From Verrucomicrobiales bacterium (GTDB lineage Bacteria > Verrucomicrobiota > Verrucomicrobiia > Verrucomicrobiales > DEV007), in the NCBI GenBank assembly GCA_029233965.1, contig JARGOP010000021.1:4687-66330 (forward strand): DNA of 61,644 bases. Reading direction: 5' to 3'. Position 1 is the first letter of the stretch, and each line of letters begins with the position of its first letter. The notes beneath the pieces are model-generated. The model was not told where the DNA came from. It saw only the letters and a list, made by a program, of their open reading frames with translations, and did not search any database. This document shows, one piece after another, positions 5,439 to 58,713 of this stretch. The position numbers and the translations under genes are program-made.

Positions 5439-5669
5439 TCAATCGAGGACAAAACGCTCTTCCCAGGGCGGGGGGAGCACTTCATCTTTCCCGAAGTGCT
5501 CGAGCCAGTAGTTCGTCTGCGCCGCCGTTTCGGCCATGAATTGCGCCCACGGGACCGGCTCACCCGGGCCTTCGAGGAGAGGCTCGTCGCAAATCGGAAG
5601 ATTCATGGCCAACGTCGCCTCGGATACCCGCGGCTGCGTACTCTTATCGCGCTCTTGATCGTATTTCAT
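5439..5669 (-). CDS. Small protein paired with a nucleotidyltransferase
   Basis: This frame encodes 76 residues, acidic and rich in Glu and Pro, with no membrane segment or recognised domain. Its ATG lies inside the end of the upstream nucleotidyltransferase gene (26-nt overlap, different frame), so it is likely translated by coupling. Small proteins placed this way after AbiEii-like nucleotidyltransferases are often partners of a toxin-antitoxin-like pair, but no homology proves that here. It could also be an unrelated small gene. Reading both strands, this frame is more plausible than the antisense alternatives because of the tight overlap. Confidence 0.5.
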   Translation of the reverse strand: MKYDQERDKSTQPRVSEATLAMNLPICDEPLLEGPGEPVPWAQFMAETAAQTNYWLEHFGKDEVLPPPWEERFVLD

Positions 5670-6222
5670 TCACCAGTCGGGAAAGAAGCTCCTCGCTTCC
5701 GAAATGTAGCACCAGATCCCGAAAACTCTCATCCTTTTGGGGGTCGAAACCGGATCGCATCGTCAGCTCAATGATATCGCTCCAATCCTGGGCGTCAGCC
5801 CTTCGACCGGGAGCCTTCAAAGCCTTGAGTTTCATCGCGATCAAATGGTCAGCAGCAGCCACGGGTACAGGGATCCCTTCGTCAAATTCGGCCACCCCCG
5901 CCCCGGACGACAGAGTTTCCCAGGTCGATTCATCGACAATCATGAGATCGATCCGCGGCCGGGCGCGGGCTTCATCCCAGAATTGTGCGAAGGCAGGAGT
6001 CGCATGTAGAAACGCATGGCCCTCAGCCTCAAGAAATCGTCGCCAGTCCGGCAAGACCCGCTCAGGCACGACAAAATCGATATCCCGGGTGAAACGTGGA
6101 ACGCCATGGGCGATGACAGCGTTCCCTCCGATGAGAAGAAACTCAGCAAGACCTTGCTTCAGAGCCCTTTCGCAGACCTGCTTCAACGTAACCGCTACAA
6201 GATTGGAATCTGACTCGCTCAC
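5644..6222 (-). CDS. AbiEii/MNT-type nucleotidyltransferase
   Basis: This 192-residue protein has the core signature of the DNA polymerase beta-like nucleotidyltransferase fold: GGN at residues 32-34, DID at 47-49 (two metal-binding aspartates) and a third candidate aspartate, D92, in RIDLMIVDE. Proteins of this type transfer a nucleotide to a protein or tRNA; AbiEii and MntA act in abortive-infection or toxin-antitoxin pairs. Here the partner would be the overlapping 76-residue gene. The start is the GTG at 6222, preceded by GAAAGG. No HEPN gene is adjacent, which argues against a classic MNT-HEPN pair. The exact activity is inferred. Confidence 0.7.
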   Translation of the reverse strand: MSESDSNLVAVTLKQVCERALKQGLAEFLLIGGNAVIAHGVPRFTRDIDFVVPERVLPDWRRFLEAEGHAFLHATPAFAQFWDEARARPRIDLMIVDESTWETLSSGAGVAEFDEGIPVPVAAADHLIAMKLKALKAPGRRADAQDWSDIIELTMRSGFDPQKDESFRDLVLHFGSEELLSRLVNEIRSRAR

Positions 6223-6307
6223 CTTTCGAGCCTACCGCATTTCGGTCATCCTTTCACCCCCCGAATTTTCCCCGGGCGGACTCAAAATCCCGTGCTACCG
6301 TCCGCGC

Positions 6308-7423
6308 ATGTTACAGGCAGGTATTGTTGGTCTTCCAAACGTGGGGAAATCCACGCTCTTCAACGCAGTGACCCGGACGCGCAATGCGGAAGCGGCGAAC
6401 TATCCCTTTTGCACGATCGATCCGAACGTCGGCGTCGTCACCGTGCCCGATGATCGACTCCAGGTTCTCAGCGATCTGAGCGGATCGAAAAAGCTCGTCC
6501 CCGCTGCGATCGAATTCGTCGACATCGCCGGCCTCGTCGAAGGCGCCTCCGCCGGGGCCGGTCTTGGAAACAAATTCCTTGCCAACATTCGCGAAGTCGA
6601 TGCCGTGGTCCAGGTCGTTCGCTGTTTCAACAACGATGACATCGTTCACGAGCTTGGCTCGGTGGATCCGCTTCGCGACATCGAGATCATCAACTCCGAG
6701 CTTATCCTTGCCGACATCGCAACGCTGGAAAAACGTCGTGCCTCACGTGAAAAAAAAGCGAAGCAGGGGGACAAAGAGTCTCAGGCCGAAGTTGCTCTGA
6801 TCGATAAACTGATGCCGCACCTCGATGCGGGAAATCCTGCACTCACCGCCGACCTCACCGACGATGAGAAAAAGCTCATGCGGGACTTTTTCCTCCTTTC
6901 CGCAAAGCGCTCCATCTTTGCCTGCAACGTGTCTGAGGACGAACTCGCCGGAGCGCTGGAGGATCCGGACGGCCATGCCATGGTCAAAAAAGTCCGGGAC
7001 TATGCTGCCTCCACCTTCGGCGCGGAAGCCATCGTCATCTCTGCCCGCATCGAAGAGGAAATGGTCGATCTCGAGCCGGAGGAAGCCGCTGAATTTCTCG
7101 CCGACATGGGCGTGAAAGACTCGGGCGTCTCGGCTCTCATCCGCGGCGTTTACCACCTTCTCGGCCTTCGCACCTACCTGACGACCGGCGAGCAGGAGAC
7201 CCGCGCGTGGACGATTCGCGAGGGCATGAAAGCTCCACAGGCCGCCGGTGTGATTCACGGGGACTTCGAGCGCGGTTTCATCGCTGCGGAAGTCGTCCAC
7301 TATGACGACCTCACCACGCTCGGTTCCTACACCAAAGCCCGCGAGGCCGGCAAGCTCCGCATCGAAGGCAAGGAATACGTGATGAAAGACGGAGACGTGG
7401 TGGAGTTCCGATTTAACGTCTAG
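6308..7423 (+). CDS. ychF: Redox-regulated ATPase YchF (Obg family)
   Basis: The 371-residue product starts [16 protein letters not shown], with the P-loop G-L-P-N-V-G-K-S at residues 8-15, followed by the switch motif DIAGLVEGA. The fourth nucleotide-specificity motif is of the N-x-x-E kind (NVSED), which in YchF favours ATP over GTP. A TGS domain fills the C-terminus. Length matches the family (about 363). YchF/OLA1 binds ribosomes and affects the oxidative stress response. The frame stays open upstream to 5771, but that part is antisense to the nucleotidyltransferase; the ATG at 6308, where homology begins, is the real start. Confidence 0.95.
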
Positions 7424-9538: not shown

Positions 9539-11254
9539 ATGAACACCCCACGCCTCTCTCTTTACGGAATTTCAGCGGCCACTCTAGCTGTCACGACCGG
9601 TCTCTTCCTCACCTGCAATTTCAAAGGGATCGCTCAAGACGCCCCGGAGCTGATTTCAGGACCGCTCACTCCACCGACGGCCCCCTCCGTGGAAATGCCT
9701 CCGCCGGAGTCCGTGCAGGCCGATATCTCCGAAGTCGACATGGATGCGATTGTCAGAGTCGAGGTGGATACCAAGCAGCCCAACTACCGCGTCCCCTGGA
9801 ACATTGGCGGAATGAACAGTGGCAACGGCACCGGCTTTCTCGTCGGACCGAACCGGTTCCTCACGAATGCTCATGTCGTCAGCGATGCCCGGCTCATTTA
9901 CATCAAAAAAATGAGCGACCCAAAGCCCTACGAGGCACGGGTCGTCAATGTTGCGCACGATTGTGACCTCGCGCTTCTCGAACTCGAATCCGAGGAGGAA
10001 TTCGAAGGTGCCTTCGCCAATCTCCAGCCGCTCTTCATCGGGGGGATTCCGAAGCTGAACACAACCGTCGTCGCGGTGGGTTACCCCATCGGCGGCGAGC
10101 GCATCTCCGTTACGCGCGGTGTCGTTTCACGAATCGACTTCCGGACCTACAGTCACTCCAGCGTCGACAACCACCTTAGCATTCAGGTCGATGCCGCGAT
10201 CAACCCGGGAAACTCGGGCGGACCCGTTCTTCAAAATAACCAGGTCGTCGGCGTTGCCTTTCAGGGCTACTCGGGTGCTGTCGCGCAAAACACGGGCTAT
10301 ATGATCCCGGTTCCAGTCATCGAGCGGTTTCTGAAAGATGTCGAAGATGGCAGCTACGATTTCTACGTCGATCTCGCCACGAGCGTGATCAACATTCTCA
10401 ATCCCGCACAACGCAAGGCACTCGGCCTTCCCAACGACGGAGTCGGCGTCATGGTCGCAGAAGCCGATGCGGCCGGTTCAGCCGGCGGCATCCTCAAAAC
10501 CAAAGACGTGCTCCTTTCCATCGACGGCTACACGATCGCGTCGGACGGATTTATCGAGATCGAGGGAGAACGTATTGACCTCAACGAGATCATCGAGCGG
10601 AAGTTTGCGGGAGACACCGTTGATCTCGAAGTCTGGCGGGACGGCGCCCGCAAGGAAATCACGCTTGAGCTCAAGCGCTTTCTCCCCTACCTCATCCAGG
10701 CGAGTCAGTATGACAAGCAGCCGAACTTCGTGCTCTACGCCGGTCTTCAGTTTCAACCTCTCGACCGCAATCTGATGGCGGCCCATTCGATCAGCGATCT
10801 GCAAACCCGCTATCACTACACCTTCTTCAGTCAGGACGAAATCTACCGGGAGCGCCCCCAGGTCATCGTGCTCACCGAGGTGCTTCCCGATTCGACCAAC
10901 ACCCACCTGAAAAACTACATTCACAAGGTCGTCGATTCGATCAACGGGAAAAAAATCGGACTCGTTCAGGACGTTTACGATGCGTTTCACGGTGATTTCC
11001 ACGAGGAAGGCTACGAGGATTTCCATGTCGTCCGCCTCCTCGGAGAAGGTCGTCCTCTCGTCCTAAAGCGGAAGGATTCCGCGATCGCCCACGAGCGCAT
11101 CAAAGCAAAATACAACGTCGGTTTCGATCATTTCATCGAAGAGCCGGAAATCATGCAGCTGAAGGATACCCTCGCACCCGTTGAGCGGGAGGAGGAACCC
11201 ACCGGGGATTCCGAAGCGGAGGAGACCGCCGAACCAGCCAAAAAAGCTGCCTGA
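9539..11254 (+). CDS. HtrA/DegP-like trypsin-fold serine protease with PDZ domain
   Basis: The 571-residue protein has an N-terminal signal or membrane segment (about 8-30), a trypsin-like domain with an apparently intact triad, and a PDZ-containing C-terminus. The triad is His112 (TNAHVV), Asp143 (HDCDLALLE) and Ser226 (NPGNSGGPV). The first PDZ lies at about 290-375 (GVGVMVAEADAAGSAG, VLLSIDGYTI); a second, less clear one lies at about 430-500. This is the layout of the plant and PVC Deg group of HtrA proteases, which degrade misfolded envelope proteins. The tail is rich in Glu. It is followed after 33 bp by a paralogue that has lost its catalytic residues, so the two may form a mixed complex. 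Confidence 0.85.
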   Translation: MNTPRLSLYGISAATLAVTTGLFLTCNFKGIAQDAPELISGPLTPPTAPSVEMPPPESVQADISEVDMDAIVRVEVDTKQPNYRVPWNIGGMNSGNGTGFLVGPNRFLTNAHVVSDARLIYIKKMSDPKPYEARVVNVAHDCDLALLELESEEEFEGAFANLQPLFIGGIPKLNTTVVAVGYPIGGERISVTRGVVSRIDFRTYSHSSVDNHLSIQVDAAINPGNSGGPVLQNNQVVGVAFQGYSGAVAQNTGYMIPVPVIERFLKDVEDGSYDFYVDLATSVINILNPAQRKALGLPNDGVGVMVAEADAAGSAGGILKTKDVLLSIDGYTIASDGFIEIEGERIDLNEIIERKFAGDTVDLEVWRDGARKEITLELKRFLPYLIQASQYDKQPNFVLYAGLQFQPLDRNLMAAHSISDLQTRYHYTFFSQDEIYRERPQVIVLTEVLPDSTNTHLKNYIHKVVDSINGKKIGLVQDVYDAFHGDFHEEGYEDFHVVRLLGEGRPLVLKRKDSAIAHERIKAKYNVGFDHFIEEPEIMQLKDTLAPVEREEEPTGDSEAEETAEPAKKAA

Positions 11255-11287
11255 ACCAACCTGCTGAAGCTCAACTCTTTCCTTTCC

Positions 11288-12775
11288 ATGACCTCATTTT
11301 CATTCAAATGGCCCCTCGCCATCCTTGTTGCCCTTTCTCTTCCTGCCCTGGTGACGGCACAGGATGCCTCGCCCGAAAACTCCATCGTTCGCGTCAATGC
11401 CACGCTCCAGAGCTACAATTTCCTCCGCCCCTGGGAGAAGGGGGCACCCACACCGAGACGCGGACTGGGTGCGGTCCTCGAAGGCAATCGTGTCCTCGTC
11501 ACCGCCGAACTGGTCGTAAACTCCACCTTTCTCGAGCTTGAGCACCCGTCCAACGGCGACCGTGTTCCCGCCCGCATTGCCGGACTCGATTACGAAGCCA
11601 ACCTCGCCGTCCTGGAGCCGTCGAACGACAGCTCGACGGTATTTGAAGGCCTTTCGCCACTTGAACTCGATGACTCCGTAACCGCCGGGGAAACCCTTCA
11701 AGTCTGGCAGATCGAAGACAACGGCGATGGTGTCACGACCGATGTCGAAGTGCTGCGGGTGAACGTCGGCCGCTATTTCATCCCCGGCTCAGTCTTTCTC
11801 CTCTATCAGGTGAAGGGCTCCCTCCAGGCCCGGGTCAACAGCTTCACACTTCCTGTCGTGAAAGACGGGAAGCTTTGCGGTATGCTCCTGAGCTATTCCT
11901 CGAAAGAGCAGACCGCCTCCGTTCTTCCTGTTCCCATCATCAGCGCTTTCCTGGAAGACCTGAAGGATGGCGAATACGAGGGCTTCCCCAATCTCGGGAT
12001 CGGCATCAGTCAGATGCTGGACGAGACTCTCCGGGAGTTCACCGGGGTCGACGGCGAGGACGGCGGTGTTTTCATTCGAAATGTCGCGAAGGACAGTTCT
12101 GCTGAAAAAGGCGGACTGAAAAAAGGCGATGTCATTCTCTCCATCAACGGCCAGGCCATCGACTCGCGCGGCAATTACACGCACCCGGAATACGGAAAAC
12201 TGAGCTTTTCTCACCTTGTCCGGGGCGATGCGAAGGTTGGCGACAGCATTACGGTTGATATCATCAGAGACAAAGAGCCCCAAACCATTGAGATGGAGTT
12301 GATCCGGAAGCGTCCCGACGATTTCCTGATCGATCCTTACATGTTCGATCGCGGCCCCAAATATGTGATCTTCGGTGGACTCATTTTCCAGGAATTGACC
12401 CTCCCCTACCTGGAAAGCTGGGGCGACGAGTGGGTCAATCGCGCGCCATTCAAGTTGGTTCATGCCAATGCGAACCCGGAAGAGTGGGAGGAGCAGGACC
12501 GTGATAAGCTCGTTTTCCTGAGCAATGTGCTCAAAACCCCGAGCACTCTCGGCTATGAAAACCTGAACTCCGCGATCATCACGAAAGTGAACGGGAAATT
12601 CATCAAAAACATCAGGGATTTGTCTGCCGCTTTGAGCGAAGCGCCTGAGTACGGCATCCACACGATTGAATTTGTGGATTATCCCAAGGTGATTTACGTC
12701 GACGACAAGGCGTCTCAGTTCGTGAATCAGCAACTGATTCAATATGGAATCGGTCAACTTCAGCGTCTCGAATAA
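11288..12775 (+). CDS. Catalytically degenerate HtrA-like protein (pseudoprotease) with PDZ
   Basis: The 495-residue protein has a signal peptide (about 1-25, ending VTAQD) and aligns along its length with the upstream protease. The catalytic positions are changed: TNAHVV becomes VTAELVV (His to Glu74), CDLALLE becomes ANLAVLE (Asp to Asn104), and GNSGGPV becomes VNSFTLPV, which keeps a serine (184) but loses the glycines of the oxyanion region. The PDZ domain stays well formed (SAEKGGLKKGDVILSINGQ at about 270-295). I infer a non-proteolytic role: regulator, adaptor or substrate-binding partner of the upstream enzyme. The frame is open, so this is not a pseudogene. Confidence 0.8.
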   Translation: MTSFSFKWPLAILVALSLPALVTAQDASPENSIVRVNATLQSYNFLRPWEKGAPTPRRGLGAVLEGNRVLVTAELVVNSTFLELEHPSNGDRVPARIAGLDYEANLAVLEPSNDSSTVFEGLSPLELDDSVTAGETLQVWQIEDNGDGVTTDVEVLRVNVGRYFIPGSVFLLYQVKGSLQARVNSFTLPVVKDGKLCGMLLSYSSKEQTASVLPVPIISAFLEDLKDGEYEGFPNLGIGISQMLDETLREFTGVDGEDGGVFIRNVAKDSSAEKGGLKKGDVILSINGQAIDSRGNYTHPEYGKLSFSHLVRGDAKVGDSITVDIIRDKEPQTIEMELIRKRPDDFLIDPYMFDRGPKYVIFGGLIFQELTLPYLESWGDEWVNRAPFKLVHANANPEEWEEQDRDKLVFLSNVLKTPSTLGYENLNSAIITKVNGKFIKNIRDLSAALSEAPEYGIHTIEFVDYPKVIYVDDKASQFVNQQLIQYGIGQLQRLE

Positions 12776-12793
12776 GAGGCGTCAGAACTCGCG

Positions 12794-12821
12794 TTGACTT
12801 TTCGGACTTTTCTTTTATCGT
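12794..12821 (+). promoter_or_regulatory. Putative sigma70-type promoter upstream of rpmH
   Basis: TTGACT (12794-12799) and TATCGT (12816-12821) are separated by 16 nt, about 137 bp upstream of rpmH. The -35 is strong, the -10 moderate. It would drive the rpmH-rnpA-yidD-yidC unit. Confidence 0.4.
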
Positions 12822-12957
12822 TGCGGCCCTCCAATTGGGAAGACGATTCCATCGTCTCACTGAATGTCAGGAAACCGGAGTGGAATGAAAGTCATCCCAC
12901 GCCTTCGCGCGAAGAGCGCGTCACACAGCAAACGAATCTTTTTTTACCCGTAAGAAC

Positions 12958-13140
12958 ATGAAACGGACCTACCAACCTTCAAAACGTTCGCGCAAAAACC
13001 AGCACGGCTTCCGCGCCCGCATGGCGACCAAGGCCGGTCGTGACATCATCAAGCGCCGCCGCCAAAAAGGCCGTAAGCGTCTCATTCCCAAGGGTGCAGA
13101 GCTTCAGTACAAGCGCCACACGGTTCAGCACGGCAGGTAA
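12958..13140 (+). CDS. rpmH: 50S ribosomal protein L34 with C-terminal extension
   Basis: The N-terminal 44 residues match bacterial L34 closely ([20 protein letters not shown], then [20 protein letters not shown]). The usual protein stops near residue 44-47; this one runs to 60, with an extra tail [19 protein letters not shown]. It is part of the large ribosomal subunit. As in most bacteria it begins the cluster rpmH-rnpA-yidD-yidC, which often lies near the chromosome origin; dnaA is not in this window. Confidence 0.95.
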
Positions 13141-13236
13141 TGCTGTGCTCCGGTGCGCTTCAGCCTCCTGTCGTCGCACCGTTTTCACCGGTCAGGGGTT
13201 GGATCCACCGATTCCTCTGATTTTCGCCCCGGGACC

Positions 13237-13599
13237 ATGAAGTTCCCACGATCCAGGCGTATCACGAGAAGATCGGATTTTCAGTTGGTGCGCTCGAAAG
13301 GGAAATCGGTCCACGGCCGCTTTCTTGTCTTAGGGTATTTCAAGTGCTCCACAAAGACGCCTTCGAAATTGGGTTTAATTACCACGAAGCGTCTCGGGAA
13401 TGCCGTGATCAGAAACCGCGTGAGGCGGAAGCTGCGCGGGATCATGCAACGCGTTGGGGACCGTTTTCTGCCCGGACACTGGCTGGTCCTCATCGCACGA
13501 AACGCGGCGGCCGGAGCGACTTCTGAACAGCTTGAGAAGGAATGGAAATGGCTCATGCATCGAGCAGACTTGATGATACCGAAAGAGGAGCAGGGATGA
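13237..13599 (+). CDS. rnpA: Ribonuclease P protein component
   Basis: The 120-residue basic protein carries the RNR signature of RnpA (LGNAVIRNRVRRKLRG), which contacts the catalytic RNA of RNase P, the tRNA 5'-maturation enzyme. The ATG at 13237 is chosen because similarity begins there (MKFPRSRRITRRSDF); a GTG at 13153 would add 28 unrelated residues. It overlaps yidD by 4 nt (ATGA). Confidence 0.93.
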   Translation: MKFPRSRRITRRSDFQLVRSKGKSVHGRFLVLGYFKCSTKTPSKLGLITTKRLGNAVIRNRVRRKLRGIMQRVGDRFLPGHWLVLIARNAAAGATSEQLEKEWKWLMHRADLMIPKEEQG

Positions 13600-13919
13600 A
13601 ACCGGTGCTGATTTTTTTTGTTCGCTGCTACCAGAAGGTGATTTCACCACCGCTTCATTTTATCTGCGGCCCACTGAGCGGATGCCGTTACTTTCCTTCC
13701 TGCTCTCAGTATTTTATCGATGCCGTGACCGTAAATGGCTCCATCAAAGGCTCGTGTCAGGGGCTCTGGAGAATTTTACGCTGTCAGCCATGGGGCGGGC
13801 AGGGATATGACCCGCCTCCGGGATGGGAAGAATATGTGGCAAAACACCCCGAGGCCGCTTATGTAGGCCGACGTTCCTGCGACCTGCCGGACGCTGAAAC
13901 TGAAAACCCCAATCAATAG
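13596..13919 (+). CDS. yidD: Membrane protein insertion efficiency factor YidD
   Basis: The 107-residue protein shows the YidD pattern: hydrophobic amphipathic N-terminus (MKPVLIFFVRCYQK), then GCRYFPSCSQYFIDAV and RCQPWGGQGYDPPP. YidD helps insertion of inner-membrane proteins by YidC. It starts within the rnpA stop (ATGA) and lies 13 bp upstream of yidC, the classic order. The C-terminus is somewhat longer than in E. coli. Confidence 0.93.
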   Translation: MKPVLIFFVRCYQKVISPPLHFICGPLSGCRYFPSCSQYFIDAVTVNGSIKGSCQGLWRILRCQPWGGQGYDPPPGWEEYVAKHPEAAYVGRRSCDLPDAETENPNQ

Positions 13920-13932
13920 GAAAAAAGCTGTC

Positions 13933-15861
13933 GTGAAAAACATGGATCGAACATCTTGGATAGGCGTGATTGTCTGTCTGTGTCTGCTCTTTACCTGGGG
14001 CTGGTGGAACGCAAAGGAGACCGCCAAGCAACTGGAGGCCCAGCGTGAGCAGGCCGCTCTCGAAGCCCTGAATCCTCCCGTGGAAGAGGAAGCTCCGGCC
14101 CCCGTCAATGCGCTGACCGCTCCTGAAGCAGCTCCTGCGGACGATGCTCTGGAGACGGTTGCGGAGATGACGCATGTCCTTGAGAGTGACCTTGCCAGGT
14201 TTCACCTCACCAATCGCGGCGCTGGCATTAAGATCGCCGAGTTGAAAGATCAGGCCCGTCACTTCGAGGGTGACGATTTCATCACCATCAACGAGAATGC
14301 AAGCCATCCGGTCGGCGCGCTCTCCTCCGGCCCCGGCCAATTCGACAATACCAACTGGAACGTCACTGAGAAATCAGCGGAAAAAATCACTTTCGAAACG
14401 AAGACGCCAGCCGGTTTCACCATTTCCAAGACCTATCGCCTCCCCGGCCCGGATCGTGACGCGCATGAAATCATGCTGGAAATGAGCGTTCGCAATGAAT
14501 CGCAGACGCCCCTGGTCCTCGCAGATCAGTTTCTCTACGCAGGTTCCGCCGCTCCGCTCCACCTCAATGAGTGGTCGATGCAGATCGGCATGTTCTGGCT
14601 GCAGAGCAACGGGGACTTCGAGTATGAAACCGTAGATCACTACGGCGGTCGCAAGGTGCTGGGGATTTTCGGAAAGAATGAAATCGAGTCCGATGAATTC
14701 TCCCTCGAATCCCTTCGCTGGGCGGGGGTGAACGACCAGTTTTTCGTGACCATCGTGCAGCCTGAAAACGCACACGAAGCAACGCTATGGGGGAGTCGCT
14801 TCCCTGTCGTAGTCGAAGGAGACGAGGAAGCTTCGACGAAAAAGCGCATGTTTGCCGCCGAGGCAGGCATCGGGCTCCCCCCGCTTTCGATGAATCCGGG
14901 CGATCAGCAGACGCTTCGCTACCATCTTTACCTCGGACCCAAGGAATTCTCGCGTCTCAAGGGACTCGGTGAAGAAAAGCAACTCGTCATGCACTACGAC
15001 GAGATCCCGATCTTCGGCTGGCTCTTCGGCTGGGCGATCAAGCCCCTCGCCTCCTGGCTCATCATGGGACTTGTTTTCCTGAAGGGCTACGTGGGCGGCT
15101 ACGGTCTCGCCATCATTCTCATCACCCTCATGATCCGCCTCATCATCTGGCCGGTCTACGCGAAGTCAGCCCGCTCCATGAAGCGGATGTCCAAGCTGAC
15201 CCCAATGATGAAAGAGATCCGGGAAAAGTATGAGGACAATCCTCAGAAGATGAATGAGGAGACGATGAAGTTGTATCGGACCTACAACATCAACCCGCTG
15301 GGCGGCTGTCTCCCCATGTTCATACAGCTCCCGATCTTCCTCGCGTTTTACCGGATGCTCTGGAGTGCGGCGGAACTTCGCCACGAGTCCTTCCTCTGGG
15401 TCGACGACCTCGCGATGCCGGATACGATGTTCATGATCCCCGGTCTGGACATCCCCTTCAATCTTCTCCCGATTTTGATGGGCATTACCAGCTTCATCCA
15501 GATCGCAATCACCCCGAAGACAGGCGACAAGACACAGCAGATGATTTTCATGCTGATGCCGCTGATTTTTCTCGTCATCTGTTACAACTTCGCTGCGGCC
15601 CTCGCTCTTTACTGGACGACTTCAAATGCTTTCTCGATACTCCAGACCTGGCTTATGAACAAAATGCCTGAGCCCGAGCTGCAGAAGAAGCCGACCTCCG
15701 GAAAGAAGTCTTTCATGCAACGCATGCAGGAACAGGCGGAAGAAGCCCAGAAGGCAAAAGCCGCCGGTGGAACCGGTGGTGGGATCTCGAGGAAAGACCG
15801 GACCCGCATGCCGGGCGAGAAAGGCGATCGTCACACGAAAGGCAAGAAGAAGCGGAAATAA
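13933..15861 (+). CDS. yidC: Membrane protein insertase YidC
   Basis: The 642-residue protein has an N-terminal membrane helix (about 8-24), a large periplasmic domain rich in beta strands (about 60-340), then the conserved insertase core with about five membrane helices (about 360-590), including the hairpin MKRMSKLTPMMKEIREKYED and GGCLPMFIQLPIFLAFYRML. The end is very basic (KGKKKRK), as in YidC proteins that bind ribosomes. The GTG at 13933 is preferred over the ATG at 13942, because AGGAAAAAA lies at the right distance before it. It works with YidD and SecYEG in inserting membrane proteins. Confidence 0.95.
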   Translation: MKNMDRTSWIGVIVCLCLLFTWGWWNAKETAKQLEAQREQAALEALNPPVEEEAPAPVNALTAPEAAPADDALETVAEMTHVLESDLARFHLTNRGAGIKIAELKDQARHFEGDDFITINENASHPVGALSSGPGQFDNTNWNVTEKSAEKITFETKTPAGFTISKTYRLPGPDRDAHEIMLEMSVRNESQTPLVLADQFLYAGSAAPLHLNEWSMQIGMFWLQSNGDFEYETVDHYGGRKVLGIFGKNEIESDEFSLESLRWAGVNDQFFVTIVQPENAHEATLWGSRFPVVVEGDEEASTKKRMFAAEAGIGLPPLSMNPGDQQTLRYHLYLGPKEFSRLKGLGEEKQLVMHYDEIPIFGWLFGWAIKPLASWLIMGLVFLKGYVGGYGLAIILITLMIRLIIWPVYAKSARSMKRMSKLTPMMKEIREKYEDNPQKMNEETMKLYRTYNINPLGGCLPMFIQLPIFLAFYRMLWSAAELRHESFLWVDDLAMPDTMFMIPGLDIPFNLLPILMGITSFIQIAITPKTGDKTQQMIFMLMPLIFLVICYNFAAALALYWTTSNAFSILQTWLMNKMPEPELQKKPTSGKKSFMQRMQEQAEEAQKAKAAGGTGGGISRKDRTRMPGEKGDRHTKGKKKRK

Positions 15862-55664: not shown

Positions 55665-57290
55665 TCAATCCGCATGAGTGGCTGAATATCCTTCGGAAAC
55701 GAGATCAAGAAGGCGCTCACGATGCGATGGGTTGAATGGTTCGAAATGATCAGACGCAGCCTCGAAAAGAGATGCAAAGCGTTTGTCCCAGCTGATGGGT
55801 TCGCGCTCAAGGGCCCTCTCTCTGGCGGCCCACTCGAGACGGCGCCATTCCAGCATCCAGGCGAGAAGTGCCGGGAACGCTTTGCCCCGCAATCGTTTCA
55901 GGAGAAAAGGCCACGATGAATTTTCCGAAGGCTCCAGAATCGCCTCCGTCGGAAACTCAACCCGAATCCGAATATCCCAGACCGGCCATTCAGGACAAGG
56001 CTTCGAAACGATTGCCTTCCAACCAGCATGCCCGGCTTCTCTCAATAGGTAAATCTCAATCTGCCAGGGACTTTGCAACTCGAACTGGAGTTCAGCACTG
56101 TCAAACTGATCAAGCGCCCGGCGAATCTTCGCGGCAATCCGTAATGCTTCTCCTGTCTCCACCCCACCCTTCAACTCCAAAAGCGCAGGAAGAGGCATTC
56201 CCGAACACAGATCAGAAATAACAAGAGTAAAATCCTCTTCACAAAGAAGTGCCCGGGTTCGCAATGTGTTGGGGTGTTGACTCAAAAACGGGATCGCCAT
56301 TTTCCGGTTCACTTCCTGAATAAGTGACTCCCCGAACCAACCCTCCGGCGGCAGCAATGCCCCCTGACGGTCGATTTCACCTCCAGGATCCGACTTGAGG
56401 GGAAGCACAAACGGAGAGGCAACCGTGACAGCACCCGGGCTGCCACCATCTCGAGCGAGCTTCTCCGGATACTCCACTGACAACGATTCCATGAGAAAGG
56501 TTCTCACCGGGCCCAGCGGAGCCGCAGGTAAGTCGCCTATTCGGTCAGTGGATGGCCTCAAAGCATCCGTCTCTCTCCGCAGACAGCGCTCCAATTCCTC
56601 CAGAGCGTCTCCCATCCCGAGTTCGCGACCGGAACGCATCGCTTTCAGAAGCTTCCGAAAAGGGCGCTGTGTCGAAGGATCGTAGTCGGACACTTCCTTC
56701 TCCCATCCGTCCCTCGCAGCTCCGTAAACTCCGGCAACATACTCGCCCCAGAAACAGGCAATCTCAAAATCGCTCTTCGATTCTTCTTCCCGAAGCACAG
56801 GGAAGACGGGATGTAACTCAGTCTCGAGCGAAACCCCGTGACGACTTCTCACGAGAAAGTCATCCGGAACTGAGTTCGAAAGCAATCTCGGTGCCCGGGT
56901 CAGTTCCCGAAGTTGCGCCACCATATTCCTCAACAGCCCCAGCGTGATTCGTAACCGGGGTCGGGTTCTTCTCACATAAACCGAAAAGGGCTCGCCTTCG
57001 ATAGAACCGGCAAGAATTTCCCCCCGATTTTCATCCTCTATTTGAATGGACTTCAGAAGGGCGCCGGAAACAGGCAACTGCTGCCCAAGTTCAAACCGCT
57101 GCCTGACTGAATTGAGGTATCCCCTTTGAAACTCCCCTTCAGCATTGATGACGAATTTCCAGCCGATATCATGTCCCGCCGGATTTCCGACAAAAGCAAA
57201 ACTCCACGAGGCAATTGTCTCATCACCCCACTGGCGATGGAAGTAGCTGGTCTTAAGAACCTCGTGTAATTGGTGCTCCTCTGAAGTCAT
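55665..57290 (-). CDS. Unknown cytoplasmic protein, downstream of the insertion sequence
   Basis: I do not recognise a family in this 541-residue protein. There is no signal peptide or membrane segment; it has several Arg/Glu-rich helical parts (e.g., LLRNMVAQLRELTRAPRLL, about 120) and a Trp/Arg-rich C-terminus (LLAWMLEWRRLEWAARERA). Some of the order recalls lipopolysaccharide-kinase or pseudokinase folds, but no catalytic motifs are convincing. Its ATG at 57290 lies 8 bp from the IS end; before insertion it would have been 4 nt after the glycosyltransferase stop, so it belongs to the same operon. A terminator follows it. Confidence 0.6.
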   Translation of the reverse strand: MTSEEHQLHEVLKTSYFHRQWGDETIASWSFAFVGNPAGHDIGWKFVINAEGEFQRGYLNSVRQRFELGQQLPVSGALLKSIQIEDENRGEILAGSIEGEPFSVYVRRTRPRLRITLGLLRNMVAQLRELTRAPRLLSNSVPDDFLVRSRHGVSLETELHPVFPVLREEESKSDFEIACFWGEYVAGVYGAARDGWEKEVSDYDPSTQRPFRKLLKAMRSGRELGMGDALEELERCLRRETDALRPSTDRIGDLPAAPLGPVRTFLMESLSVEYPEKLARDGGSPGAVTVASPFVLPLKSDPGGEIDRQGALLPPEGWFGESLIQEVNRKMAIPFLSQHPNTLRTRALLCEEDFTLVISDLCSGMPLPALLELKGGVETGEALRIAAKIRRALDQFDSAELQFELQSPWQIEIYLLREAGHAGWKAIVSKPCPEWPVWDIRIRVEFPTEAILEPSENSSWPFLLKRLRGKAFPALLAWMLEWRRLEWAARERALEREPISWDKRFASLFEAASDHFEPFNPSHRERLLDLVSEGYSATHAD

Positions 57291-57294
57291 CCGC

Positions 57295-57298
57295 TTAG
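57295..57298. repeat. Target-site duplication, left copy (TTAG)
   Basis: TTAG, matching the copy at 58765-58768. Read on the minus strand it is CTAA and provides the stop of the transposase. Confidence 0.85.
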
Positions 57299-58713
57299 CA
57301 GCCTGTTGAAGAACGGCGGATTTCCGGGATGATCCACGATCTCCGCGATATGGTGAGCAAGTTGTCCGAACACCGCCCATTCGAATCGGAACGCAAAGGC
57401 GAGCTCAGGAGGCCGGCGAAGAGTCGAACGAGGCGATTTGCGAGCCGGATAAGAGCCGAAACGGACTGTGCCGTCCACTGTTTCGGCGTTCCAAATCCGA
57501 AGATCTTGCGCATCAGCAGCGAAAGGTCATAGGTCATCGCTGCGGCGATTTGTCGCTTGGTCAGGTTTTCCTTTCCTCGCAATGTGGCTCGCCTCAACCC
57601 ACCGTGATCGAGCACATGGGCGAAGCTTCGTTCCAGGTGCTCGCCCCGCTTTCTGAGAAGTGCCTTTCCGCTTTTGCTTTTCACGGCTCGCTTCGCCTTG
57701 TTCAAGGTTTGCCGTGTCACCTTGCACCGCTTGTCTTTGTTCCTGTGTGACTCGTGCGGGTCGCCCATCACCGTGCGGATGCCTTCGCTCTGCAACGCAC
57801 AGACTTCCTCTGCGCTGAAGTAGCCTTCGTCGGTTGTCAGGCTCCGTCCCACTTTCTCCTGTTTGGGATCTTCGCAGACTCCCGCCAGCGTCCGGCATCC
57901 TTCCAGCACACGATCAGACAACTCTTCGCTGTCTCCGCTATCGCCGGTTCTCACTTCGGCCCGGATGATCGCCCCGGTCTCCAGGTCGGTGAAATGCTCG
58001 GGCTGATAAAACATGTCGCAGGCCCCGTCCTTGGTCCGGCCGACCCTGGCATCAGGATCGTGTGGATTGACCCAGTCCTCGTCGGAGGTCTTTCGTCCCT
58101 TGCGCTTCTTATCGAAACGACGCACCGCCTTGGTATCGTCGGGATCGATTCCCGCTTCCGCAGCAAGCTTTTTCACATACTCCCAGTAGGACTCTTCGGT
58201 GTTGCGGTGCTGCAGTTCACGCAGGCTCGCGTTGGCTTCGATGATCGAAGAGTCGATGCCAAGGTCGCGCCCCTTGAGCAGCCCGTGCTCGTAGAGCCCG
58301 GTGAGCACGATCTTCAGCGCGCTCTGGTAGACTTCCACTCCCAGGCGCGTACGGATCACCGAGAGCGACGAGTGATCCGGTGTGCTTTCGGTCAGGTTGT
58401 AGCCAAGGAAGGCCCGCAACGAGAGGCTGTCTTCGCAGCGGCTCGCAATGGCCCGCTCACTGGGAAGATTTTCGAAGAACCCAATCATGAGCATCTTGAA
58501 GTAAACGGATGGATCGATACCTGGTCGCCCGCCCGAACTCGCTTTCTTGTAGGCAGCTCGGCAGAGATCGCGCACCTTCCCGGCGAACTCCATCTCGCGA
58601 AGCGTCTCGTCAAGCTTGCGATAAAACGTTCCTGCCTTCACCGCCGGTAACTGTCTCTTCTCCACCCAGAACTCTTCCTGCTTCGGCTTCTCCCCATCGC
58701 AATGCTCAAACAT
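57295..58713 (-). CDS. IS5/IS1182-type DDE transposase
   Basis: The 472-residue protein has an N-terminal DUF772-like domain (about 60-125; GRPGIDPSVYFKMLMIGFFE, ASRCEDSLSLRAFLGY) and a DDE catalytic domain: D154 in LGIDSSIIEAN, D295 in TTDEGYFS and E361 in RGEHLERSF. Reading frame is intact, so the element may be active. The last base of its final codon and its TAA stop come from the 4-bp target duplication, outside the IS itself. Base composition is like that of the neighbours. Confidence 0.9.
   Translation of the reverse strand: MFEHCDGEKPKQEEFWVEKRQLPAVKAGTFYRKLDETLREMEFAGKVRDLCRAAYKKASSGGRPGIDPSVYFKMLMIGFFENLPSERAIASRCEDSLSLRAFLGYNLTESTPDHSSLSVIRTRLGVEVYQSALKIVLTGLYEHGLLKGRDLGIDSSIIEANASLRELQHRNTEESYWEYVKKLAAEAGIDPDDTKAVRRFDKKRKGRKTSDEDWVNPHDPDARVGRTKDGACDMFYQPEHFTDLETGAIIRAEVRTGDSGDSEELSDRVLEGCRTLAGVCEDPKQEKVGRSLTTDEGYFSAEEVCALQSEGIRTVMGDPHESHRNKDKRCKVTRQTLNKAKRAVKSKSGKALLRKRGEHLERSFAHVLDHGGLRRATLRGKENLTKRQIAAAMTYDLSLLMRKIFGFGTPKQWTAQSVSALIRLANRLVRLFAGLLSSPLRSDSNGRCSDNLLTISRRSWIIPEIRRSSTGC

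Follow-up and report, generated by a model that had tools for sequence, protein, structure and literature searches.

HtrA proteases have mostly been described as homo-oligomers. HtrA systems with a catalytically dead unit are already known: the degenerate protease domain of plant Deg7 is stated to mediate trimerization in the available excerpts of an inventory (PMC3473262) and a review (PMC4754418), and the pseudoprotease MamO, according to the accessible part of the respective study, is a metal-binding protein that MamE-dependent proteolysis needs and that activates via a TauE transporter domain (PMC4794232). In Leptospira, an operon LIC20143/LIC20144 has been described, in which LIC20144 was treated, in the available portion of the report, as a PDZ-only protein whose role was left open (PMC7709667). 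Here we analyzed two adjacent genes in a stretch of 61,644 nucleotides from a Verrucomicrobiales bacterium (GCA_029233965.1, contig JARGOP010000021.1, positions 4,687 to 66,330; hereafter the window), which encode an HtrA-type protease with intact triad (T1) and a paralog without it (T2). What is new is that a dead HtrA paralog is kept as a separate gene alongside the live one. The pair occurs in part of the Verrucomicrobiota and in Leptospira, it is old and under selection, and we favor, with moderate confidence, the view that T2 serves as the non-catalytic subunit of a mixed T1–T2 assembly, in which two genes would correspond to what plant Deg7 combines in one chain.

Both genes lie on the + strand, with exact open reading frame (ORF) coordinates of 9539-11254 for T1 (571 amino acids) and 11288-12775 for T2 (495 amino acids), and no terminator-like site was listed inside the 33-base-pair gap between the T1 stop and the T2 start (11255..11287). 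Based on ORF, Pfam, sequence search, and alignment, T1 is a Deg2/Deg9-type HtrA protease gene. Its trypsin-like protease domain (residues ~64-272, 9728..10354), delimited by a Trypsin_2 match of 90 bits over residues 97-239 and by the AlphaFold2 (AF2) model, contains the catalytic residues His112 (codon 9872..9874), Asp143 (9965..9967), and Ser226 of the GNSGG motif (10214..10216), all placed by alignment. A PDZ1 domain (residues ~273-383, 10355..10687, with the PDZ_2 match at residues 303-378) and a PDZ_3 domain (residues 387-529, 10697..11125, PF17815, 62.1 bits) follow. With a trypsin-like domain carrying His-Asp-Ser and GNSGG, and PDZ behind it, T1 would by its sequence be classed as an HtrA/Deg (S1C) peptidase.

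The second gene, T2, was recognized as a pseudoprotease paralog by ORF, BLASTP, Pfam, alignment, and AF2. T1 and T2 align over 464 columns with 25% identity (BLASTP, E 5e-31) and over 457 columns with a probability of 100% in a profile comparison, and plant Deg2 (4fln) and Deg9 (5il9) are the best solved relatives by sequence of both. A signal-peptide-like N-terminus (residues 1-24, 11288..11359, identified by eye) precedes a degenerate protease domain (residues ~26-235, 11363..11992, from AF2 and the Deg9 match), which scored only 15 bits with Trypsin_2 and thus remained below the Pfam cut-off of 27.6. BLASTP, the large alignment, and the profile comparison agree that Glu74 (11507..11509) is at the place of the catalytic histidine and Asn105 (11600..11602) at that of the aspartate. 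For the serine, the alignments disagree: Phe186 (11843..11845) is most likely at this place according to the BLASTP, Leptospira-including, and profile alignments, and the large alignment puts an Asn there. With Glu, Asn, and no GNSGG, T2 falls outside the active S1C peptidases and is a non-peptidase homolog. The C-terminal part again consists of a PDZ1 domain (residues ~236-345, 11993..12322, PDZ_2, 48.1 bits) and a PDZ_3 domain (residues 351-488, 12338..12751, PF17815, 94.8 bits). A preliminary description of this DNA had already presented the second gene as a full-length paralog of the first that keeps the signal peptide and PDZ and has exchanged His for Glu and Asp for Asn, all of which holds. 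Its statement that GNSGG had become VNSFT was right in substance, as the motif is gone, but about one place off, and the second PDZ domain, PDZ_3, was absent from it.

To determine the spread of the pair, whole genomes were searched with the protein P0002 as query, which detects T1 homologs as well. Matches were found in 55 of 56 relatives, 68 of 141 genomes of the class, and 72 of 194 genomes of the phylum, in union 150 Verrucomicrobiota genomes; as the query also finds T1 homologs, the unmatched genomes are without both genes at this sensitivity. The main loci were fetched from each of the 150 genomes, leaving out weak second-place matches (E > ~1e-7), and proteins were typed as T1 or T2 by the higher whole-length score against the window proteins, independently of the triad, with near ties for three T2 (L155, L145, and L111; here and below, G, C, L, f, and g numbers are our handles for genomes, contigs, loci, families, and genera). 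ORFs of at most 60 bits (1 of 249) and one weak extra HtrA match in L169 were dropped before counting. The first count gave both genes in 116 genomes, which span 39 family and 56 genus codes, T1 only in 32, and T2 only in two, both of the latter with T2 fragments at contig ends. In G313, T2 is split into two pieces that lie at contig ends, and in G027 and G280, T1 is cut at the contig end exactly where T2 would come. As G313 thus holds T2, and G027 and G280 end at a contig edge, both genes are present in 117 genomes, and 29 have a truly single-looking T1. The pair is therefore conserved among relatives, but it is not a general feature of the Planctomycetes–Verrucomicrobia–Chlamydiae group, as had been suggested, with no match in 73 of the 141 class and 122 of the 194 phylum genomes and a pair outside this group in Leptospira.

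The catalytic residues separate the two types completely. His-Asp-Ser was found in 150 of 151 T1, the remaining one being truncated (150 of 150 readable), and in none of the 117 readable T2 among 119. The Asp site of T2 is Asn in 106 of 117, and 81 of the 117 have Glu or Asp at the His site; a single T2 retains His alone. Absence of the triad from every readable T2 exceeds chance loss. PDZ_3 was present in all 57 T2 and all 58 T1 scanned with Pfam, as expected of the Deg2/Deg9 architecture, to which T2 belongs by its fold. Among the same 57 T2, 50 matched PDZ_2 and only 10 Trypsin_2. The second gene is thereby overlooked in annotation, as Pfam recognizes the PDZ domains of T2 but mostly not its protease domain. 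In a crude hydrophobicity scan, 135 of 138 T1 and 103 of 109 T2 showed a hydrophobic stretch at the N-terminus. With regard to a possible lipoprotein anchoring, the same scan gave a lipobox-like pattern in 11 of the 138 T1 and 17 of the 109 T2. Judging from the signal-like N-termini, T1 and T2 are probably exported.

The order of the genes is equally constant. T1 came first and T2 second on one strand in all 106 two-gene loci of the main extraction (105 genomes), with a largest gap of 436 bases, and likewise in all seven loci fetched later. With mechanically chosen starts, the genes overlap by 4 or 1 bases in 31 of the 106 loci, and T2 starts no more than 60 bases beyond the T1 stop, in some cases upstream of it, in 68 more; four lie further apart, and three were unresolved. 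In three genomes (G033, G104, and G185), the genes are on different contigs, although there is further sequence on the contig at the site where one would look for the partner; in G123, by contrast, it is just the end of a contig that cuts the pair. G024 has two pairs (L216, G024:C234, and L217, G024:C198), in one of which T2 has a frame break at about residue 400, while the T2 of the second, intact pair carries Lys at the His site. This was the only visible frame break among 119 T2, so that frame decay, the other observation that could have spoken against a function of T2, is practically absent. A short extra T2-like fragment (L250, G282:C85, 1929-2348; 45 versus 13 bits) was seen away from the intact pair of its genome.

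A large tree was calculated with 191 of 247 proteins, 56 being excluded for redundancy or a length of at least 900 amino acids. In this tree, T1 and T2 are split by a single branch with a Shimodaira–Hasegawa-like approximate likelihood ratio test (SH-aLRT) support of 100. A rooted tree of 89 rows with 26 pair loci, to which plant Deg2/Deg9 and, as outgroups, DegP-like proteins of the same genome had been added, gave T2 as one clade (SH-aLRT 100) and all 26 paired T1 in one clade (95), with single-copy T1, plant Deg2/Deg9, and a Sulfurovum protein outside both. Three T1 that had been entered as single sit in the paired-T1 clade, namely those of G118, whose T2 had been length-filtered, and of G280 and G313, where contigs end. 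Support for the order of the large groups is weak (83 and 87), and the single-copy lineages may have lost T2 or may never have possessed it. The distances of T1 and T2 correlate over 78 loci with r 0.92, computed without a control protein for the shared species history, and none of 1000 permutations reached this value. The pattern of the trees fits a single duplication and a single loss of catalysis, after which the two genes were inherited together. Apart from these groups, active-looking Deg9-like proteins without adjacent T2 form a deep separate clade (L127 of G104, L115, L129, L141, L142, L152, L156, and L157) from some members of the class (f17, f11, f28, and f31); G104 has such a protein besides its separated T1 and T2.

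Selection was assessed by the ratio of nonsynonymous to synonymous substitution rates (dN/dS) from Nei-Gojobori counts, using 56 and 58 of 351 pairs with dS <1.6 in the genus of the window and 66 of 153 pairs each with dS >0.05 and <1.6 in a second genus (g4); these pairs share species and hence are not independent. In the genus of the window, T1 had a median dN/dS of 0.134 and T2 one of 0.124; in the second genus, the medians were 0.128 (T1) and 0.166 (T2). T2 is thus under purifying selection close to that on T1. Comparison of the window proteins with three relatives gave dN values of 0.023, 0.065, and 0.111 for the dead protease domain of T2, 0.070, 0.131, and 0.194 for its PDZ1, and 0.041, 0.070, and 0.121 for its PDZ_3, so that in all three comparisons neither PDZ domain evolved more slowly than the dead domain. 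The T1 protease domain had 0.004, 0.011, and 0.069 with the same relatives. The dead domain of T2 is therefore under selection, but less so than the live domain of T1. Together with the conserved pair, the triad loss throughout, and the single clade, these values bear out the earlier proposal that T2 is selected for a non-catalytic function. The roles proposed along with it, control of the protease within a hetero-oligomer or delivery of substrates, are plausible.

Structures were predicted for single chains. The AF2 model of T2 (57 sequences) reached a predicted local distance difference test score (pLDDT) of 93.2 and a predicted template modeling score (pTM) of 0.88, and that of T1 (58 sequences) a pLDDT of 86.8 and a pTM of 0.81. 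The T2 model matched Deg9 (5il9) with Z 38.9 and a root-mean-square deviation of 2.7 over 455 residues, and Deg2 with Z 37.5; Foldseek agreed on Deg9/Deg2 as fold matches. In its model, T2 has a complete Deg9-like fold with a trypsin-like protease domain and PDZ domains. T1 and T2 both have a conserved Pro-Trp ahead of the first strands, and the stretch PWxKxxPxxRRGLG (residues 48-61, 11429..11470; majority consensus and Leptospira comparison), especially its RRG part, is characteristic of T2, the PW being common to T1.

As many relatives keep both genes, and nearly always adjacent, the inactive twin is probably a partner of the active enzyme. In the scenario that we favor, an ancient duplication of a Deg2/Deg9-type HtrA protease would have produced the active copy T1 and the copy T2, and the latter would have lost catalysis once and early. 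T2 would then have become an obligate non-catalytic partner; its protease fold, dead but intact, would pack against T1 to form a mixed oligomer, it would set the assembly and active state of T1, and its PDZ domains could offer extra surfaces for substrates or signals. Physical contact between the two proteins, and any influence of T2 on its partner, are inferred. Several aspects weigh against such an assembly. About half of the class genomes (73 of 141) manage without either protein. The high distance correlation would be expected from shared species history, and tandem order and coupling would also suit two proteins of one pathway that do not touch. The genomes with separated genes are draft assemblies in which binning errors are possible. 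T2 as a whole evolves 1.36 times faster than T1 (78-locus distances), and its dead domain 1.6 to 6 times faster than the T1 protease domain (dN, three comparisons). Finally, in the available part of the MamO study, MamE activation needs the transporter domain, and a MamE–MamO contact was not detected (PMC4794232).

The MamO case and the faster divergence of T2 as a whole also speak for the strongest alternative, in which T2 was repurposed outside the cytoplasm, for example as a chaperone or a metal- or cell-wall-binding scaffold, and stands beside T1 for shared regulation without contact. Pseudoproteases with functions of their own exist, as the metal-binding MamO exemplifies, and T2 diverges faster than its neighbor. 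However, T2 without T1 was seen only at contig ends, and both genes were retained in the three genomes in which they are separated. Moreover, neither His nor Cys was found among the columns that are at least 90% conserved in 57 T2, and a MamO-like metal site is thus not evident. We regard repurposing as unlikely, though it is the alternative to be taken most seriously.

Still less probable, in our estimation, is that T2 is a transient adaptor or inhibitor that binds T1 via its PDZ domains, for instance for substrate delivery, and not a stable subunit. The well-kept PDZ domains of T2 would agree with this, as would a glycine of PDZ1, which we take to be part of the peptide-binding loop and which is kept in T2 of the window (Gly237) and replaced in T1 (Ala280). 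Across the set, this contrast is not clean, as the glycine occurs in 42 of 80 paired T1, 62 of 81 T2, and 13 of 30 single T1. For the same reason, we rejected the idea of a complementary loss, in which T1 keeps catalysis and T2 peptide binding, at which the window had hinted. In addition, the dead protease domain of T2 is as constrained as its PDZ domains, although an adaptor acting through PDZ alone could dispense with it. The view of T2 as a decaying duplicate or as a sequencing artifact, for which one could quote the single frame break and the freely varying residue at the Ser site, is ruled out by median dN/dS values of 0.12-0.17 in two genera and by one clade that extends over 39 family codes.

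Beyond the phylum, a tblastn search against plasmid records gave three matches, two from Leptospira interrogans and one from Sulfurovum, the latter with one active-looking protein at one place in its record. The Leptospira record L247 (3301-6413) contains an "S1C family serine protease" and, 14 base pairs on, a "PDZ domain-containing protein". The former has His-Asp-Ser and groups with T1. The latter has no GNSGG, its His site is occupied by Ser and its Asp site by Asn, and a long branch joins it to the T2 clade, within which it falls. This pair is downstream of an adenine phosphoribosyltransferase gene, which is the arrangement also given for the tandem LIC20143/LIC20144 in the available text of PMC7709667; the likeness concerns the arrangement of the genes. 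A degenerate protease domain of LIC20144 is not mentioned in that text. The pair had been called unstudied, which is nearly correct: no account of it in Verrucomicrobia appeared among the literature matches listed, judged by titles and abstract openings, but the Leptospira operon had already been noted, with the second gene taken as PDZ-only in the part of the report at hand (PMC7709667). The same text contains a second protease/PDZ operon with an ATGA overlap, LIC11112/LIC11111, which may be another such pair.

The neighborhood was analyzed for ~3 kilobases on either side of the pair. In the window, ORFs resembling rpmH, rnpA, yidD, and yidC (by eye) follow at 12776-15861. A conserved operon with these genes was considered and rejected, as the respective clusters (15-18 loci each) have at most one locus outside the genus of the window, and being nearly genus-bound, they say little about the function of the pair. 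An upstream ychF-like cluster comprised 16 loci, five of them outside the genus and from three genera, and the widest neighbor family had seven loci in seven genera at mixed positions. The neighbors thus vary while the T1–T2 pair persists. Elsewhere in the window, a nucleotidyltransferase-like ORF (5644-6222, - strand, by eye) overlaps in antisense with the ORF 5771-7423 of a ychF-like GTPase, and an insertion-sequence-transposase-like ORF (57295-58713, - strand, by eye) overlaps ORF 55665-57380.

If T2 is indeed a subunit, only half of a protease for protein quality control has so far been seen in these bacteria, and a bacterial heteromeric HtrA would be at hand. More tentatively than the mixed assembly itself, we can imagine that part of the Verrucomicrobiota, and Leptospira, possess a constitutively heteromeric HtrA in which the dead subunit, having split off once in an ancient duplication, builds and gates the active one, in an unfused Deg7 design. 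Among the known systems, plant Deg2 and Deg9 share the protease, PDZ, and PDZ_3 architecture and are the best sequence matches of T1 and T2 and the best fold match of T2, but they keep the triad and group with the single-copy T1 of Verrucomicrobiota, outside the paired clade. Plant Deg5/Deg8 are likewise two HtrA paralogs, proposed as heterohexamers, but the review, in its available part, treats both as proteases and has no dead partner (PMC4754418). MamE/MamO of magnetotactic bacteria also combine an active HtrA and a trypsin-fold pseudoprotease in one gene cluster, as described in the excerpt of PMC4794232; according to Pfam, T2 has PDZ and PDZ_3 where MamO has its C-terminal TauE transporter domain. 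By description, plant Deg7 comes closest to the proposed assembly: it has a duplicated HtrA unit with PDZ domains, of which the first is active and the second degenerate, according to the accessible parts of PMC3473262 and PMC4754418. The units of Deg7 are fused, whereas the bacterial pair consists of two ORFs with a stop between them and with signal-like N-termini of their own.

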